A DNA stretch of 32,580 nt, taken from Bacillota bacterium (lineage in GTDB: Bacteria > Bacillota_I > Bacilli_A > Izemoplasmatales > Hujiaoplasmataceae). The translations under genes and the position numbers were made by a program. Shown piece after piece: positions 15,352 through 23,301 of the stretch. Under the pieces are notes generated by a model that saw nothing but the letters and a program-made list of their open reading frames with translations, did not search any database and was not told the origin of the DNA. The stretch spans positions 23,050 through 55,629 of the forward strand of contig JAKLGB010000003.1 of the NCBI GenBank assembly GCA_022710895.1, given 5' to 3'. Positions within the stretch are counted from its first letter, which is position 1. Each line of letters begins with the position of its first letter.

Positions 15352-16173
15352 TCAAAATTTCAACGAAATGTCCAACGAAGAAAAGGAATGGGTCAAAGCC
15401 CCGACGGAAATATAATCGACGCCGGTGCGTGCCACCGAAGGAACCCGTTCCAGGGTCATGTTGCCACTGGCCTCGAGTTTCTTCCCGGGGTGGGGAATTT
15501 TGACGCAGGCGGCCATCAGTTCAAGCGACATATTGTCCAGCATGATGACATCCGCCGGGGTTTGCAAGGCTTCCTTGTACTGATCCAGAGTTTCCACTTC
15601 CACTTCGATGAGAATCCCGAAGGGGAGTTTCCGTTTGACTGTTTCCACGGCTTGCCGAATCGACCCGGCGGCCTGAATGTGGTTATCCTTGATCATCGCC
15701 ATGTCGGAAAGGCTCATCCGATGGTTGGCGCCCCCGCCGGCCTTGACCGCCATTTTCTCCAGTCTGCGGAGGGTCGGGGTCGTCTTTCTGGTATCGAGGA
15801 TCTTCGTTCCCGTCCCTTCGACCGCATCGACGAAGCGACGGGTCAGGGTGGCGATGCCCGACATCCGCTGCATGAAGTTCAGGGCCAGCCTCTCGCCTTT
15901 GAGGATCGACTTGGTCAACCCGGAAACAGAAGCGATCTTGGTCCCTTTTTTCAAAGTTTCCCCGTCTTGGACGAAGGCGGTGAAGAGAACGGAATCGTCG
16001 ATGACGGAAAAAACCGATTTTGCCACTTCGATGCCTGCCAGAACCCCGGCCTCCTTGGCATAAAAGACGGCCGTCGAGCGTTGGTCGGTGAACAACGCTT
16101 CGGAAGTGATGTCGCCGTTGGGCATATCTTCCGCCACTCCGCGGCGGATGAGATCGAGAATCGAGGGATCCAT
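15352..16173 (-). CDS. nadC: Nicotinate-nucleotide pyrophosphorylase (quinolinate phosphoribosyltransferase)
   Basis: A 273-residue enzyme that converts quinolinate plus PRPP to nicotinate mononucleotide for NAD synthesis. Clear family blocks are EDMPNGDITSEA, LNFMQRMSGIAT, the ILDTRKTTPTLR loop, AVKAGGGANHR, MIKDNHI, IEVEVE and the C-terminal DYISVGALTHS. ATG 16173 is chosen because GGGAGG lies nine bases upstream. ATG 16179, two codons earlier, overlaps the previous stop as ATGA but is too close to that ribosome site. The upstream gene encodes a Fic-like protein with a winged helix. nadA and nadB are not in the window, so quinolinate could be made elsewhere or salvaged. Confidence 0.96.
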   Translation of the reverse strand: MDPSILDLIRRGVAEDMPNGDITSEALFTDQRSTAVFYAKEAGVLAGIEVAKSVFSVIDDSVLFTAFVQDGETLKKGTKIASVSGLTKSILKGERLALNFMQRMSGIATLTRRFVDAVEGTGTKILDTRKTTPTLRRLEKMAVKAGGGANHRMSLSDMAMIKDNHIQAAGSIRQAVETVKRKLPFGILIEVEVETLDQYKEALQTPADVIMLDNMSLELMAACVKIPHPGKKLEASGNMTLERVPSVARTGVDYISVGALTHSFSSLDISLKF

Positions 16174-16175
16174 CG

Positions 16176-17273
16176 TCATTGTCCTCCCAAATCGAGATTG
16201 AGTTGTTCCATGAGATTCTTCTTCGTTTCTTTTTTGTACAGCTTGATCCATTTGGCGCTTCGCCCTTTTCCCAAAGGCCGGATTTTGTTTTCCGCCTGCA
16301 TCCGTTGGAGGGTGCGGTTGATCGTAGAATCGGAGATCAAGGGGTGCCGGAGGCGGATGTCCTCTTTGGAGAACACTTCGTTCAATTTGTCGATCGTGTT
16401 TTCCACATAGTCGGATTTGGAAATTTCCAAGCTCGATTCGTATTCGAAATCCCGCGCCTGTTCGCCCAAATCATGATACATGTCCCGGTAAATCTGGAGA
16501 AACAGCCGTTGCAGCGGCATCAGTTCGGCATATCCTTCTTTCCAGTTGAACCGCGTTTTTTCCAAAGCGCTTTGATATTCCTTGAGATGGAAGTTCAGTT
16601 TCCCAAAAAAAGAGACATACCGGAAAACGATGAGTCGGTCCTGCAAGCCCAGGATATAATAGACCAACAGAGCCACAATGGCGTTTTCGCGGAATTTATA
16701 GATTTCAAGATTGAGGAAATCGACCATGAAATGCAAAGCCAAATAAGAATCTTCGTACTCGTTCTTTTTGCGGATTTCTTGATACAGGAGGATCAATTTT
16801 TCCAAGGTTTCCCGTTTGGAGGAGGATTCCGTCGACAACAGCGAGGTTCGGGGACGATCGAGTTTCTGATAGGCGATCTGGTCGGGGGAAAGGTACTCCT
16901 TGAACAGGAGTTTGACTAAATCGTTGATCTCCGTGACATTCAGATGGAACGTGGGCGCCTTGGGGTCATGGATGATGCGAAAAACCGCGAGAATGTTCTT
17001 GTATAACGACTCGGCTTTCGTCTTCGCCACCGTCGAATCGAGTTGGAGGGTTCGCATCCTCGCCTCGTTGATCCGATTTTCGGACGCGAAAAAGCACTTG
17101 AAGAAATAATAGGCTTCGCGAAGGGCGTTCTGATGGGAAAAGACCTCGATGTCGGGAGTGAACAGTTTTTCGTAATACTCGTTCTTTCCGATTTCGAGAT
17201 AGAGTTTCAACGTGCTCATCAGCACATCGTTGGGGATTTGCGTGCGAACCAGATTCGACAGACAGTTCATCAT
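16176..17273 (-). CDS. Fic-fold-like protein with C-terminal winged helix, active-site motif absent
   Basis: A 365-residue soluble protein without a certain family. Its plan follows Fic proteins: a helical N-terminus, a LNVTEINDLVKLLF helix (111-124), a region before the core with RPRTSLLSTESS (140-151), and a helix pair in which YLALHFMVDFLNLEIYKFRE (177-196) stands where Fic enzymes have HPFxxGNGR. Next comes ALLVYYILGL with a YVSFFGKLNFHLKEYQSALEK-like segment as in Fic, then a winged helix near 293-346 (DSTINRTLQRMQAENKI). The catalytic His and GNGR are not there, so AMP transfer is unlikely. It starts at ATG 17273 (or 17270) after AGGTGAT. It is coupled to nadC; a DNA-binding regulator of NAD synthesis is a speculative reading. 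Confidence 0.7.
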   Translation of the reverse strand: MMNCLSNLVRTQIPNDVLMSTLKLYLEIGKNEYYEKLFTPDIEVFSHQNALREAYYFFKCFFASENRINEARMRTLQLDSTVAKTKAESLYKNILAVFRIIHDPKAPTFHLNVTEINDLVKLLFKEYLSPDQIAYQKLDRPRTSLLSTESSSKRETLEKLILLYQEIRKKNEYEDSYLALHFMVDFLNLEIYKFRENAIVALLVYYILGLQDRLIVFRYVSFFGKLNFHLKEYQSALEKTRFNWKEGYAELMPLQRLFLQIYRDMYHDLGEQARDFEYESSLEISKSDYVENTIDKLNEVFSKEDIRLRHPLISDSTINRTLQRMQAENKIRPLGKGRSAKWIKLYKKETKKNLMEQLNLDLGGQ

Positions 17274-17289
17274 CGATCACCTGTGGAAT

Positions 17290-17295
17290 ATTATA
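17290..17295 (-). promoter_or_regulatory. -10 box of the Fic-like/nadC promoter
   Basis: TATAAT on the minus strand, 16 bases before the first ATG; the -35 region is weak (TTTCAT at 17 bp). The upstream stretch 17362-17380 carries two TCATGA palindromes 13 bp apart, of unknown meaning. Confidence 0.65.
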
Positions 17296-17390
17296 CCGTA
17301 AAGGCCGGATGAATGAAATGATTTCTGCGGATTTTTCGGCCGATTAAACAAAAAAATATAGTCATGACGGCTGATCATGAACATGTTTCG

Positions 17391-17425: not shown

Positions 17426-18703
17426 TCATTCCGTCGGATAGGAATATTGGTCGAGAACGGCGATCGCGCTATCGTACCAAGCCGAATCGTTCCAACCGAG
17501 AGCCGTTTGATACCAGGTCGCCGAGGCGAGGTTCTCGGCGGTCACGGCCGTCCCGCCCGTTACGGTGGGAACCGTTGCCGATTGCGTCAGGAATCTGGCT
17601 CCTTGGGCAGTGGCGGAATCCTCAAAGAACCCGGCGACACCGCCGTAAGTGACCGTTTGTCCTTCGGAGGGAGTGATGGCGACCACCGATTTCACCACGG
17701 AATCCAGGACGGTTTGCGTCCAACTTTCCCCGACCAAGCCGCCCACGGAAAGCAGGGCTCCGGCCGCGGTGATTTCGGAATAGGCGAAACAATCTTCCAG
17801 ATGACCGAGCCCGTCATAGCCGAACAACCCTCCCACCAAGGCTTTCGTTCCCCGGGAAACGACCGAAATCTTGGAGACAGCGGCACAGCGCTCGGTGAGG
17901 ACGAACGGATCGCGTTCGATGGCGTCCGCATGGCCGGCCAGATATCCCCCGTAATTATGTCCGACGAGGCCCCCGACGTACAAACGGTCGGTTTCGGCGG
18001 AAGCCGTGAGGGATGCGGTCGATCGGCAGTCGTTCAGTTCGACGTTGAAGGTTTTGCCAACCAATCCGCCCACATAACCGAACAATTTCGTGGCGACGGT
18101 GAGACGCCCTTCGGCGCGGCAACCGCGGAGGACGCTCTCGATGAAATCGGTGGGAACGTCCATCTGTTCGACGGGAGTCGTGGCGAATCCCGCGAGCAAT
18201 CCGGCATAGGTGCTGCCGGCGGCGTTGTTGACGGTCAGGGTTCCGTTGACTTGGATATTGGTGAGGTTGCCGGTCAAATAACCGACCAACAGGCCGGCAT
18301 AAAAAGCCCGGTTGGGATTGACGTTGACCGTCACATCCGTCAAGCGCAGGTTCTTAATGTCTCCAGTGACGTATCCGAAGAAACCGGCGTACCCGTCGTT
18401 GGAACGAGTGATGGTAAAATCGGAGATGGTGTGGTTTTGACCTTCAAACGTTCCCGAATACGGAGCGGTGTCGGTGCCGATCGGAGTCCACTCCGCTCCG
18501 GCAAGATCGATGTCGGCGGTGAGGCGGTAGTTTTTCCAAGGATCCATCGCCAAGAGATCCGCCGCATTGGCAATGTCGTAGACGTTGGGATCATCGGCGG
18601 TCGTCGTGGTCGTGACCGTTGTGGTCGTGGTGCCAAAAAGGTCGCAGCCCAATAACGCCAGGCCAAGACCCAATACAAACAGCAGGACAAACAGTTTTTT
18701 CAT
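17426..18703 (-). CDS. GLUG-repeat surface lipoprotein
   Basis: A 425-residue secreted lipoprotein. The signal peptide ends in a lipobox LALLGC with Cys20 as the lipidated residue. A Thr-rich spacer (residues 25-35, almost all Thr) follows. The body has about eight GLUG-type repeats, each a YxGGLVG-like core followed by a short beta segment, at about 104, 135, 167, 210, 242, 289, 319 and 353. Such repeats are thought to form a beta-solenoid and occur in adhesins and other surface proteins, so a surface-binding role is possible but unproven. ATG 18703 follows AAGGAG, only 12 bases after the parC stop, with no terminator between. It is therefore carried on the topoisomerase IV operon, an unusual place for a surface protein. 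Confidence 0.85.
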   Translation of the reverse strand: MKKLFVLLFVLGLGLALLGCDLFGTTTTTVTTTTTADDPNVYDIANAADLLAMDPWKNYRLTADIDLAGAEWTPIGTDTAPYSGTFEGQNHTISDFTITRSNDGYAGFFGYVTGDIKNLRLTDVTVNVNPNRAFYAGLLVGYLTGNLTNIQVNGTLTVNNAAGSTYAGLLAGFATTPVEQMDVPTDFIESVLRGCRAEGRLTVATKLFGYVGGLVGKTFNVELNDCRSTASLTASAETDRLYVGGLVGHNYGGYLAGHADAIERDPFVLTERCAAVSKISVVSRGTKALVGGLFGYDGLGHLEDCFAYSEITAAGALLSVGGLVGESWTQTVLDSVVKSVVAITPSEGQTVTYGGVAGFFEDSATAQGARFLTQSATVPTVTGGTAVTAENLASATWYQTALGWNDSAWYDSAIAVLDQYSYPTE

Positions 18704-18715
18704 GAGGACTCCTTT

Positions 18716-21355
18716 TCAGAATAAGGTTTGCTGGATGACTTTTTCGCCGTCCGGATCATCTTCGGAAGCGTTGATGTTGATGATTTTTTCCAAGGCGTCC
18801 ATCACGTCGTCGGTCTCAACTTCCGTGGGCTCGGGAGGAGGAACGTTTTCCGTCTCGGAGGCTTCGGGCAGGTCTTTACGGCGCTCTTTGGCCAGTTTTT
18901 TCTGGATGTCGTCGATGGCTTCCTTGTCTTGTTCGTCGAACAACAGCCGAAGGGGGACGAACTCCTTGTCCAACAGCGGCACGCCGTGTTCGAATTTGTC
19001 GACGGGCAGATCGATTCCCGTAAAGGTCACCACGTTCTTGTCGGTGATGATTCGTAACAGGAGATGCTCTTTCAAGCGGAAGACGTTGGCGGAGACCATG
19101 CCGACGAATTGATAGGGATTGGTTTTGACGCTCTTGAGGAACATCTTGCCTTTGGCGGGACGGTGACTGGTCTCGATGTTGGCGACGAACTCCCGCTTAA
19201 GGGTCCCGCGGTTGATCAAAAACAACACTTCGTCTTTGGTGATGTCGGTGACCGCGCAGGCCCCGACGAGAGCGTCGTCGCGGAGGTTGATGGCTTTGAC
19301 CCCGCGGGCACCCAACGATAGGACCGGAACTTCTTCTAAACGATATTTCAGGACATACCCGTTGCGGGAAGCGCATATGACGGCGGTATCGTATTCCGCC
19401 ACGAGATCGACCGCAACCAGGGGATTGTCGACCGAAGCCGGGATGGCGCCGTAGGAACGAAGAGTCCGAGAAGGGAGGAATTCTTTCAGTTGGACGAGTT
19501 TGATCAATCCTTCCTGGGTCGCCAGGAGGATGCGGCGATCGTCAAACTGGTTGATAAGGAGGAAATCGAGAACCGATTCCTCCGATCCGATCGGGGCGAT
19601 CGATCCGATGTATTCGCCGATTTCCTTCCATTTCTTGTCAGGAATCTTGTAGACGGGGAGGTAAATATAATTCCCGAGGTTGGTAAAAACGAGAATGGTT
19701 TGTCTGGTGTTGACTTCGATTTGTTTCAAGATACAATCGTTGGGTTTGAGACCGACGTCGCCGTTGGTGGCCATCACCGATTTGAGGGACGATCGCTTCA
19801 AATATCCGTCGCGCGTCAGGGCGACGACGACGTTTTCGTGTTCATAGAGATCCTGCTCGGAAATCGCGACTTTTTCGATCGTTTCGGAAATGGTCGTCCG
19901 CCGCGGCGTCGGATTCTTTTCCGAAAACTGGGCCAATTCCTTCTTGATGACCCCTTGCAGTTCGGATTCGTTCTTGAGAATGCGATTCAACCAGTTGATC
20001 TGACGCGATAAGTCGGTAGCTTCGGCACGCATCTCTTCGACGTCGGTGGCGGAAAGACGGTAGAGTTGGAGCGTGACGATCGCTTCCGCTTGCGCTTCGG
20101 TAAAGGCGAACTTCGAGACCAAAGCCTCCATTGCCGATTTCTTTCCCGAAGCGGCGCGGATGGTGGCGATGACTTCATCGAGGATGTCGACCATCTTCAG
20201 AAAACCTTCGACGATGTGTCGCCGTTTTTCCGCTTTCATCAAATCGAAGTTGGACCGATTCCGGACCACTTCTTTCTGATGTTGGATATAGCTGTCGAGA
20301 ATTTCCGTCAACCCCATCAGATGCGGACTGCGGTTGTCGATGGCTACCATATTATAATTGAAGGATAGTGATAAATCGGTGTTTTTATGCAAATAGGCTA
20401 AAATAACGCCGGATTCCATCTCTTTTTTCTTTTCAACGACGATCCGGAGGCCTTCGCGATCGGATTCGTCGCGAACTTCGACGATTCCGTCGATTTTACG
20501 GTTGGTGCGGATCTCGTCGATTTTTCGGACCAGATCGGACTTGTTCACTTCGTAGGGGATTTCGGTGATCACCAATTGGGTCTCCGACATTTCCACCTTG
20601 CTTTTCATCACGATCCGGCCGCGCCCGGTCCGAAAAGCGCGTTTGATCTCTTCGAGGCCTTCGACGATTCCGCCCGTGGGGAAATCCGGCCCTTTGACAA
20701 AAGCCATCAGGTCTTCGATGGAGCAATCGGGATTGTCGATGCGGTGGATGACCGCTTCGATGATTTCGTTGAGATTGTGCGGAGGAATGTTGGTGGCGTA
20801 ACCGGTGGCCATCCCCATCGATCCGTTCACGAGCAGATTGGGGAACTTGGCGGGAAGAACCACGGGTTCGTATTCTTCGTCGTCGAAATTGGGAACGAAG
20901 GCCACGGTTTTCTTGTCCAGATCCGCAAGCAGGGCTTCGGCCGTGGGCGACAGGCGCGCTTCGGTGTAACGCATGGCCGCGGGGCCGTCCCCGTCTTGGG
21001 AACCGTTGTTTCCGTGCATATCGATCAGAATCGAGCCCATTTTCCACGTCTGTGACATCCGGACCATGGCGTCGTAGACGGAAGTATCGCCGTGGGGATG
21101 GTACTTGCCGATGACCTCACCGACGATGCGGGCTGACTTCTTATAGGGTTTGTCGGATCCCATCCCGAGTTGATTCATCGCGAACAAAATCCGGCGCTGG
21201 ACCGGCTTGAGGCCGTCGCGGACATCGGGAAGGGCGCGATCTTGGATGATGTATTTGGAATAGCGTCCGAACCGTTCGCCGATGATGTTTTCGAGCAACT
21301 CGTTTTGGATCTTTTCGTTGACGAACACGTCGACTTTGTTTTTGGCAGAAGCCAT
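18716..21355 (-). CDS. parC: DNA topoisomerase IV subunit A
   Basis: An 879-residue subunit of topoisomerase IV, the DNA-cleaving partner of ParE, which unlinks daughter chromosomes. ATG 21355 is chosen because GGAGG lies nine bases upstream; a GTG two codons earlier is too close. The winged-helix/tower core has PDVRDGLKPVQRRIL, YHPHGDTSVYDAMVRMSQ and AAMRYTEARL with catalytic Tyr130. The Ser80/Glu84 quinolone positions of E. coli ParC correspond to Thr91 and Asp95 here. ParC rather than GyrA is favoured by TWKMGSILIDMHGNNGSQDGD-like sequence after the helix and by a C-terminal beta-pinwheel without a clear GyrA box. The acidic tail after about residue 800 is low in complexity. Confidence 0.94.
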   Translation of the reverse strand: MASAKNKVDVFVNEKIQNELLENIIGERFGRYSKYIIQDRALPDVRDGLKPVQRRILFAMNQLGMGSDKPYKKSARIVGEVIGKYHPHGDTSVYDAMVRMSQTWKMGSILIDMHGNNGSQDGDGPAAMRYTEARLSPTAEALLADLDKKTVAFVPNFDDEEYEPVVLPAKFPNLLVNGSMGMATGYATNIPPHNLNEIIEAVIHRIDNPDCSIEDLMAFVKGPDFPTGGIVEGLEEIKRAFRTGRGRIVMKSKVEMSETQLVITEIPYEVNKSDLVRKIDEIRTNRKIDGIVEVRDESDREGLRIVVEKKKEMESGVILAYLHKNTDLSLSFNYNMVAIDNRSPHLMGLTEILDSYIQHQKEVVRNRSNFDLMKAEKRRHIVEGFLKMVDILDEVIATIRAASGKKSAMEALVSKFAFTEAQAEAIVTLQLYRLSATDVEEMRAEATDLSRQINWLNRILKNESELQGVIKKELAQFSEKNPTPRRTTISETIEKVAISEQDLYEHENVVVALTRDGYLKRSSLKSVMATNGDVGLKPNDCILKQIEVNTRQTILVFTNLGNYIYLPVYKIPDKKWKEIGEYIGSIAPIGSEESVLDFLLINQFDDRRILLATQEGLIKLVQLKEFLPSRTLRSYGAIPASVDNPLVAVDLVAEYDTAVICASRNGYVLKYRLEEVPVLSLGARGVKAINLRDDALVGACAVTDITKDEVLFLINRGTLKREFVANIETSHRPAKGKMFLKSVKTNPYQFVGMVSANVFRLKEHLLLRIITDKNVVTFTGIDLPVDKFEHGVPLLDKEFVPLRLLFDEQDKEAIDDIQKKLAKERRKDLPEASETENVPPPEPTEVETDDVMDALEKIININASEDDPDGEKVIQQTLF

Positions 21356-21357
21356 CT

Positions 21358-23301
21358 TCACTCGCCTCCTTTGATCCGGAAATCATCCTCGGAGGTGAAA
21401 CTGACATTCGTATCGATCCATTCTTTGCGGGGATCGACATCGTCACCCATCAAGATCTGAATCCGGGATTCGGCGTCGGCGAGATCTTCGATGGTGACGC
21501 GGATCAAGGTGCGGGTTTCCGGATTCATCGTCGTTTCCCACAACTGCGGAGCATTCATTTCTCCCAAGCCTTTAAAACGCTGGATGTTATACGCTTTGAA
21601 GGATTTGCAAATGTCTTCACGTTCCTCTTCGTTCCAAGCATATTTGGTTTCTTCTTTTTTCCCGGTCTTGGTGATCTTGTATAACGGCGGGAGGGCGATA
21701 AACAGTTTCCCGGCTTCGACGAGCGGGCGCATGTATCGGAAAAAGAAGGTGATCAAGAGGATCTGAATGTGGGCGCCGTCGGTATCGGCGTCGGTCATGA
21801 TGATGATTTTGTTGTAATTGGATTTGTCGATTCGGAAATCCGAACCCAATCCCGCCCCGACCGTAGAGATGATGGTTGCGATTTCCTCGTTTTTGAGAAC
21901 GTCTTCCATCTTCTGCTTTTCGGAGTTGATGACTTTTCCCCGCAGGGGAAGGATGGCTTGGAACCGGCGGTCGCGGCCTTGTTTGGCCGAACCCCCGGCG
22001 GAATCGCCTTCGACGAGAAACAATTCATTGATCTTGGCGTTTTTGGTTTGCGCAGGCGACAGTTTTCCCGACAAAATCGTCTCGGTTTTGGAAACTTTTT
22101 TGACGAGACGGGCATCTTCGCGAGCTTTTCGCGCCGCCTCGCGAGCATTGCGGGCGTTGAGCGCTTTTTCCAACAAAGAACCGGCCAATTGCGGGTTTTC
22201 GGTCATAAAAATGGCCAATTGTTCGCCCACGACGTTTTCCACCGCCGGGCGTGCTTCGGGGGTCCCGAGCTTGTTTTTGGTCTGACCTTCGAATTGCAGG
22301 AGATTCTCGGGAATGCGGACGGATACGACGGCGGACATCCCTTCGCGGATGTCGGCCCCATCCAAGCCTTCGTCCTTTTCTTTCAAAAGACCGATGCGCC
22401 GACCGAAGTCGTTGAAGACTTTCGTGAAGGCCGATTTGAAGCCGGTTTCATGGGTTCCGCCGTCTTTGGTACGGACGTTATTGACGAAGGAAATGAGATT
22501 TTCGCTGTAGGATTTGGTGTATTGGAAGGCGACTTCGACTTCGATGTCGTTGGATTTGGACGCCAAAGAGACCGTCGGATGGACAACGGTGCGGTTGGCG
22601 TCCATAAAATCGACATACTCCTTGATACCGTCTTCATATTGATAGGTTTCCCGCTGACGACTCCGTTCGTCAATCAGCTGGACTTTAAGGTTCTTGATTA
22701 GAAAAGCACTTTCGCGGAGCCGCTCTTGAAGGGTTTGGAAATTGAAAAGGGTGGTGGAGAAAATCGTCGGATCCGGTTTGAACCAGACATCGGTTCCGGT
22801 TTTTTTGGTTTCACCGATGACGATCAGTTCTTTGACCTTTTTTCCGCCTTTTTCAAAACGCATCTGATACATCAATCCGTCGCGATGGACGGTAACCTCG
22901 AGAAACTCGGAAAGCGCGTTGACGACCGAGGCTCCGACGCCGTGGAGACCCCCGGCGACCTTGTAGGCGCTCCCCGAACCGCCGAATTTACCGCCGGCGT
23001 GTAATTTGGTGAAGATGACCTCGACGGCGGAACACCCCGAGGCATGCATGTCCACGGGCATTCCGCGGCCGTCATCGGAAACGATGACGGAGTTATCTTC
23101 CTTGATCACTACGCGAATCGAGGAACCGTATCCGCCCAAAACTTCATCGATGGAGTTATCGACGATTTCCCAAACGAGATGATGGAGCCCGCGTCCGTCG
23201 GTAGAACCGACGTACATGCCCGGACGCTTCCGGACGGCTTCCAAACCCTCAAGGATTTGAATGGATTGGGCATTGTAGGTTTCTTTGCTTTTCTCTGCCA
23301 T
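21358..23301 (-). CDS. parE: DNA topoisomerase IV subunit B
   Basis: A 647-residue ATPase subunit of topoisomerase IV. The GHKL ATPase domain has WEIVDNSIDE (44-53, with Glu45 and Asn49), DDGRGMP (76-82) and GGLHGVGASVVNALS (117-131). The transducer domain contains TKDGGTHE (278-285). The Toprim domain has EGDSAGG (431-437), ILPLRGKVINSEK and TDADTDGAHI. The last 60 residues include the IQRFKGLGEMN block. GyrB is not excluded by motifs alone, but the partner directly downstream is ParC-like. ATG 23301 follows GAGG; the promoter is an extended -10 type, divergent from plsY. Confidence 0.95.
   Translation of the reverse strand: MAEKSKETYNAQSIQILEGLEAVRKRPGMYVGSTDGRGLHHLVWEIVDNSIDEVLGGYGSSIRVVIKEDNSVIVSDDGRGMPVDMHASGCSAVEVIFTKLHAGGKFGGSGSAYKVAGGLHGVGASVVNALSEFLEVTVHRDGLMYQMRFEKGGKKVKELIVIGETKKTGTDVWFKPDPTIFSTTLFNFQTLQERLRESAFLIKNLKVQLIDERSRQRETYQYEDGIKEYVDFMDANRTVVHPTVSLASKSNDIEVEVAFQYTKSYSENLISFVNNVRTKDGGTHETGFKSAFTKVFNDFGRRIGLLKEKDEGLDGADIREGMSAVVSVRIPENLLQFEGQTKNKLGTPEARPAVENVVGEQLAIFMTENPQLAGSLLEKALNARNAREAARKAREDARLVKKVSKTETILSGKLSPAQTKNAKINELFLVEGDSAGGSAKQGRDRRFQAILPLRGKVINSEKQKMEDVLKNEEIATIISTVGAGLGSDFRIDKSNYNKIIIMTDADTDGAHIQILLITFFFRYMRPLVEAGKLFIALPPLYKITKTGKKEETKYAWNEEEREDICKSFKAYNIQRFKGLGEMNAPQLWETTMNPETRTLIRVTIEDLADAESRIQILMGDDVDPRKEWIDTNVSFTSEDDFRIKGGE

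Follow-up and report, generated by a model that had tools for sequence, protein, structure and literature searches.

A Fic-like protein without the active-site motif as a candidate DNA-binding factor at its own operon and beside dif in deep-branching Bacilli

Fic proteins AMPylate ParE or GrlB, and the catalytically dead Fic-1 H135A still binds ParE (excerpts of PMC7479194). Topoisomerase IV of E. coli binds and cleaves at dif via XerC and is modulated by MatP in excerpts of PMC4865107, and MatP with its matS sites is presented there and in parts of PMC4738335 as a terminus factor linked to dif and to topoisomerase IV. On plasmids, ArgR (with PepA) acts at cer; according to excerpts of PMC2409434, this site has one Arg-box only, which precedes the XerC site by 98 bp.

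Here, a stretch of DNA of 32,580 nucleotides (the window) from an Izemoplasmatales MAG was analysed, in which a gene for a Fic-like protein, termed pseudo-Fic, lies directly upstream of nadC and downstream of parE and parC (Table 1). Read from the sequence were its Fic homology, the loss of the active site, the winged helix, the linkage to parEC, the tail, the layout of two sites, the fixed spacing of one of them and the absence of a dif-side site from genomes without the gene. We know of no Fic protein that binds DNA in the role of a terminus factor. To our knowledge, control of Xer through accessory sites is known from plasmids (cer, psi) and not from chromosomal dif. None of the literature matches listed combined a Fic or Fido domain with dif or chromosome dimer resolution.

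Class II Fic proteins with a C-terminal winged helix (8uqu from Bordetella; SoFic, 3eqx/3zcn) share full-length homology and domain order with pseudo-Fic, and 8uqu additionally has the wing motif GKGRxAKWIK in common with it. In contrast to these proteins, the pseudo-Fic orthologues examined all lack the canonical motif and have conserved partner genes, DNA sites and mostly a clamp-like tail. Like ArgR at cer, pseudo-Fic would be a repressor-type DNA-binding protein that has an operator and, roughly 100 bp ahead of the XerC arm (about 102 bp here), a single accessory site; however, the proteins are unrelated, the site lies at chromosomal dif instead of on a plasmid, and no PepA partner is known here. 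With MatP, pseudo-Fic would share the role of a terminus factor, but no array of sites of the matS type was present, only the dif site and the operator standing above noise, and the MatP fold differs from that of pseudo-Fic. RTP, a winged helix protein, and Tus act as DNA-binding proteins at the terminus, whereas a single symmetric site at a set distance from dif was found here. The likeness to NiaR and NrtR, which are unrelated proteins, is limited to adjacency to nadC in two families, without a conserved NAD linkage.

Table 1. Positions of genes, protein segments and DNA elements in the window
Feature	Positions	Strand	Remarks
nadC	15352..16179	(-)	start overlaps pseudo-Fic stop; not all of the lineage has nadC at this locus
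pseudo-Fic protein gene	16176..17273	(-)	365 aa; N-terminal and core domains Fic-like, followed by a winged helix at the C-terminus
QLNLDL, clamp-binding-motif-like hexapeptide (QLxLxL)	16188..16205	(-)	residues 357-362, at the C-terminus
winged helix	16239..16418	(-)	residues 286-345; shows the highest conservation within the family
remnant of Fic motif region	16674..16730	(-)	residues 182-200, FMVDFLNLEIYKFRENAIV; catalytic His and GNGR gone; from 8uqu alignment and column counts
TATAAT, -10-like box	17290..17295	(-)	upstream of pseudo-Fic; read by eye
imperfect inverted repeat ATATAGTCA-N13-TGAACATGT	17356..17386	(.)	upstream of pseudo-Fic; candidate operator, same family as the dif-side repeat
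GLUG-motif protein	17426..18703	(-)	between parC and pseudo-Fic; family f1 only
parC, topoisomerase IV subunit A	18716..21361	(-)	C-terminus QQTLF (18719-18733), also clamp-motif-like
parE, topoisomerase IV subunit B	21358..23301	(-)

Fic homology, motif loss and C-terminal tail

The likely start of pseudo-Fic is the second ATG (MNC..., 17270), where relatives begin. No Pfam domain above the cut-off was detected in the window protein, and the Pfam Fic domain was detected in 7 of 22 family members, the window protein not among them. A phmmer search aligned the protein with the Fido protein PDB 8uqu_A (E 1.8e-6), placing FLNLEIYKFRENA of the window opposite FLCIHPFPDGNGR of 8uqu at the motif; the family profile matched 8uqu at E 1.2e-33, and hhalign of the family against active HPFxxGNGR paralogues from related genomes gave 99.8% (E 1e-29, 328 columns). 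The canonical HPFx[D/E]GN[G/K]R motif was present in 0 of 129 orthologues, a few of which are fragments. The catalytic His was kept in 2 of 124 long orthologues (L064 and L065), both without GNGR, and since many orthologues retain P, F and one N of the motif, its decay looks common to the whole family. Judged on homology and motif content, the window ORF is homologous to Fic proteins over its full length, belongs to the Fic/Fido family by fold and has lost HPFxxGNGR; nucleotide transfer activity would be expected to be absent because the catalytic residues are missing. The Fic layout without catalytic motif and the C-terminal winged helix, both read by the initial annotation, were borne out. 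An AlphaFold model of low confidence (pLDDT 50, input of 3 sequences) supports the Fic layout weakly: each of its eight best PDB matches was a Fic protein, with E values no better than 6.7e-3.

Several genomes with pseudo-Fic (L085-L091) carry a second, paralogous Fic protein. Most of these paralogues have an intact or near-intact HPFxxGNGR and no clamp-like tail. Pseudo-Fic orthologues were not found in viral contigs, and the defence-system models that were run gave no match.

Within the winged helix, K286, F301, K303, P311, S314, T317 and R320 were invariant in 78 aligned sequences, and G337 and R338 were conserved in 97%. Of the 127 orthologues whose C-terminus is complete, 91 had a tail of the QLxLxL or QLSLF type, window protein included, as compared with a mean of 1.6 for shuffled tails and with 1 of 395 other ORFs of the loci. 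Both forms are described as versions of the sliding-clamp-binding motif in excerpts of PMC4564189 and PMC12309361. Tails of the form Q[LIMT]x[LFM]x[LIVFM] were present in families f1 (29/29), f3 (41/41) and f5 (2/3), and those of the form Q[LIMV]x[LI]F in f12 (10/12), f16 (4/4) and f22 (5/8). No tail motif was found in the orthologues of f2, f7, f10 and f18, and clamp binding therefore cannot be essential to the family. As positive control, PolC of the same genomes carried the terminal motif in 17 of 29 cases, and GyrA in 2 of 30. The pseudo-Fic tail has the sequence form of sliding-clamp clients, and DnaN is its putative partner. ParC also ends in QQTLF/QVSLF-like clamp motifs (QxxLF in 40/83, and in 13/13 in f1 loci; 0/30 for GyrA), and topoisomerase IV itself may bind the clamp via the ParC tail. 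A function as replacement of YabA was considered and dropped: none of the 395 class genomes had a YabA (PF06156) match above the cut-off, which left nothing to contrast.

Genomic partners and the repeat upstream of the operon

Of 101 relatives, 87 had a match to pseudo-Fic at E ≤ 1e-3, a few of these being more distant matches to active Fic proteins. In a profile search of 395 class genomes, 184 had a match at E ≤ 1e-15, the weaker group of these (about 1e-18 to 1e-47) being mostly active Fic paralogues in a split judged from the scores. The nearest named relative (Candidatus Izemoplasmatales bacterium) had 74% identity in the pseudo-Fic protein, and proteins across families were mostly 26-42% identical to that of the window.

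The window nadC scored 333 bits to TIGR00078. Its start and the pseudo-Fic stop overlap as ATGA with GGAGG just upstream, which agrees with the overlap or abutment initially noticed, and the region 17290-17390, named at that time as a target for a binding test, holds the conserved operator-like repeat at 17356-17386. The initial annotation had suggested a possible NAD regulator of a new type, with a dead Fic domain as sensor of a nucleotide or of NAD in control of nadC. The degenerate Fic domain, a DNA-binding winged helix, the nadC overlap and the operator-like repeat stand, and a dedicated regulator of NAD or nadC is not supported. The ATGA overlap and the repeat-bearing promoter ahead of pseudo-Fic-nadC speak for such a regulator. 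However, nadC lies directly downstream at only 41 of 83 loci (some of which are cut by contig ends), all of them in the two Izemoplasmatales families f1 and f3, and pseudo-Fic persists without nadC: nadC is missing from G019 and G025, two single-contig genomes of 96% and 94% completeness that encode pseudo-Fic. In G043, G060, G067 and G068, nadC adjoins nadA elsewhere while pseudo-Fic stays with parC. The nadC genes beside pseudo-Fic in G041 (L033) and G037 (L057) were unusually divergent, with 36% and 33% identity to the window nadC, and no nadA match was found in either genome; these nadC genes possibly have another substrate or a salvage role.

The wider genomic partner of pseudo-Fic, as read from gene order, is topoisomerase IV (parE-parC upstream) and not nadC. 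Among 60 extended loci, 48 had parC upstream in the same orientation, and 49 had parE or parC. The gap between parC and pseudo-Fic in f2 was at most 9 bp, or the genes overlapped, while a uridine-kinase-like gene (f12, f16) or the GLUG protein (f1) was inserted elsewhere. The linkage to parEC was absent from f7 (0/6) and rare in f22 (3/8, with parC 4-6 kb off). An inhibitor, protector or adaptor of topoisomerase IV that acts by ParE binding alone, a Fic toxin turned decoy for which the DNA sites are minor, would be in line with the linkage in 48 of 60 loci, with the AMPylation of ParE and GrlB by Fic proteins and with the binding of ParE by a dead mutant (excerpts of PMC7479194). It is, however, the winged helix and not the Fic surface that is best conserved, conserved DNA sites exist, and the linkage fails in f7 and mostly in f22; we regard this alternative as improbable.

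The inverted repeat has the consensus TATAGTCA-N11..14-TGACTATA, i.e. TATA(G/C/T)TCA-N11..14-TGA(C/G/A)TATA, and was found in the intergenic region before pseudo-Fic in f1 and in the nadC-bearing f3. A half-site matrix was built from 18 sites upstream of pseudo-Fic and run over 1.66 Mb of loci. Scores of at least 18 were obtained before pseudo-Fic in f1, f3, f5, f7 and f22; in f12 and f18, sites of this strength preceded parE. In both arrangements, the site lies in front of the first gene of the operon to which pseudo-Fic belongs. Among the families outside the training set, the repeat preceded pseudo-Fic in f7 (L133), f22 (L140, L141) and f5 (L166), and parE in f18 (L123, L125, L127, L130, L131) and f12 (L148, L149, L151, L152), and thus the common factor of these operons is the pseudo-Fic gene. 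From this co-occurrence we infer that the binder of the repeat is pseudo-Fic. Where pseudo-Fic sits in the parEC operon (f12, f18), the repeat before parE would be a candidate operator of a putative regulation. No RNA gene or tRNA was found in the gaps beside the repeat. Assignment of the repeat to the ArgR/AhrC boxes was set aside, as the orientation of its half-sites is unlike the Arg-box consensus.

The repeat beside dif

Further matches to the repeat were located beyond nadA-nadB-PHP and before the asparaginase gene. In such gaps, a dif-like sequence, typically ACTTCCTATAATATATATTATGTTAACT, was present in 10 of 10 genomes examined; it is two bases off the B. subtilis dif given in excerpts of PMC3025954. 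By eye, no small ORF was conserved between the repeat and the asparaginase gene, the gap containing dif. dif occurred once per genome in 28 of 30 genomes tested and was not found in two, the window's own included (G000), in which there was no dif at 3 mismatches and no repeat-profile match at E ≤ 0.1. As to its surroundings, dif lies between a PHP-domain gene and the asparaginase gene, next to nadA-nadB, in f1 and f3 (L282:960-2322, L283:1130-2614), and in f16 the asparaginase gene comes after pseudo-Fic and dif.

The repeat starts 129-133 bp before dif, with its inner edge about 102 bp from the XerC arm, and it lies on the XerC side. This spacing was kept even though identity to the window protein is mostly 26-42% in the families concerned. 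In the offset profile of f1, f2, f3, f5, f12 and f22, obtained with the matrix from the 18 sites upstream of pseudo-Fic alone, 31 of 39 contexts fell into one 8-bp bin (-134..-127), as compared with a mean of 0.085 and a maximum of 1 in other bins and with 1 of 780 for shuffled flanks. In total, the dif-side repeat was present in 32 of 65 contexts, namely in f1 (10/10), f3 (7/7), f2 (2/2), f12 (6/9), f22 (5/8), f5 (1/3) and f7 (1/7), the rest of f5 and f7 having mostly degenerate versions; it was absent from the contexts of three families with pseudo-Fic (f16 0/4, f18 0/11, f10 0/4). Contexts L303 and L307 had been dropped before this count for too little flank, and L144 and L146 of f22, with a poor dif match, were scored as misses. 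Part of the f1 and f3 contexts had been reached via the repeat, and therefore the fair test is that of contexts chosen by the dif pattern only: the repeat was present in 14 of 26 with pseudo-Fic as compared with 0 of 32 without the gene (Fisher p 1e-6, an overstatement of independence because all contexts are related by descent). The 32 gene-less contexts comprise 9 and 23, two of the 23 being from one genome; four further gene-less dif matches (extra copies in G116 and G102) were left unscored.

In a whole-genome profile search of 57 genomes, all sites at E ≤ 1e-3 were dif-side or operator sites, most of them training sites that match by construction. Outside the training set, G019 had a site at E 0.00101, located at -131 from its own dif. 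The 14 genomes without pseudo-Fic gave noise only in this search (best E 0.0165). In position, at a fixed distance on the XerC side, the repeat resembles the sites of Xer accessory factors, with pseudo-Fic as its putative binder.

Three of the alternatives can be weighed against this arrangement. The adjacency of dif to nadA-nadB-PHP and the asparaginase gene in f1 and f3 could be taken as a further point for the NAD regulator; however, the repeat near nadA-nadB sits 130-131 bp from dif, and its spacing is tied neither to the nad promoter nor to the nad start. Taken with the loci described above, control of nadC by a nucleotide-sensing pseudo-Fic appears extremely improbable. A replication fork trap near dif of the RTP/Tus kind, with the clamp motif touching the replisome, would accommodate the winged helix, the terminus site and the clamp-like tail. 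Yet each genome has one symmetric site near dif and no polar sites on both sides, this site keeps a set distance to dif and the tail is missing in several families, which makes a fork trap very improbable.

Alternatively, pseudo-Fic may be a pure autoregulator of its own, often parE-parC, operon, the dif-side repeat being used by another protein or regulator. The repeat lies 16-94 bp before the first gene of the operon (525 bp in one case, in which the parE ORF is broken), and f18 has the repeat before parE and none at dif. The constant 129-133 bp to dif despite varying coding neighbours and distances is, however, not promoter-like, and five families show a linkage of the pseudo-Fic gene with dif, the two being 56-1922 bp apart in those loci of f5, f7, f16, f18 and f22 that hold both. 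Autoregulation as the sole function is therefore considered unlikely.

Proposed role at the chromosome terminus

Given that its likely binding site precedes the operon of pseudo-Fic and recurs at constant spacing next to dif, pseudo-Fic probably helps in chromosome separation and does not control NAD synthesis. On balance, it seems rather probable that a dead Fic protein of the class II type has turned into a sequence-specific DNA-binding protein, which would autoregulate its operon and serve as an accessory factor at dif. In the proposed mechanism, the winged helix would bind the inverted repeat described above. At the promoter of its own operon, which often opens with parE-parC, pseudo-Fic would repress or tune transcription. 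At the single chromosomal copy beside dif, it would assist, as an accessory or terminus factor, when chromosomes are finally separated by Xer recombination, decatenation by topoisomerase IV or both, much as ArgR does at plasmid cer. Going further, the Fic fold may still have its ancestral affinity for ParE, and the protein may be tethered to the sliding clamp by its C-terminal QLxLxL/QLSLF motif. Contact of pseudo-Fic at dif with topoisomerase IV would fit the findings on topoisomerase IV at dif of E. coli and on Fic and ParE, but is a guess.

For deep Bacilli in large part (Izemoplasmatales, Acholeplasma-type and related families), a broader reading can be put forward tentatively, its chances being somewhat below even. 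These bacteria would use the dead Fic protein as a dedicated terminus factor, which would bind at an accessory site some 102 bp away from the XerC arm, autoregulate topoisomerase IV and contact the clamp, thereby coupling the end of replication, decatenation and Xer resolution in one nucleoprotein complex. Such an arrangement would bear on the coordination of decatenation and dimer resolution outside E. coli and is directly testable, as a small gene, a single DNA repeat and a constant spacing make up the whole system; it would also show clearly how an enzyme family of the toxin type can be taken over for the maintenance of chromosomes. Acholeplasma laidlawii (genome G176) presumably carries all parts.

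Additional elements were observed in the flanks of dif. Boxes of the TGTGGATAA type, the reverse complement of the DnaA box, occurred at +66 and +75 from the dif start as a 9-bp direct repeat (e.g. L295, L299, L310) and at -36 in f1. The +66 boxes were present in 46 of 60 contexts with pseudo-Fic as compared with 0 of 32 without it; this element follows the presence of the gene even better than the repeat does, and thus another factor may matter. Between the repeat and dif (-103..-60; f1, f2, f3, f5, f12, f22), GAGAAG-like words were found in 8 of 37 contexts as compared with 0.3 in shuffles; these words resemble SRS/KOPS, the guide sequences of SpoIIIE/FtsK.
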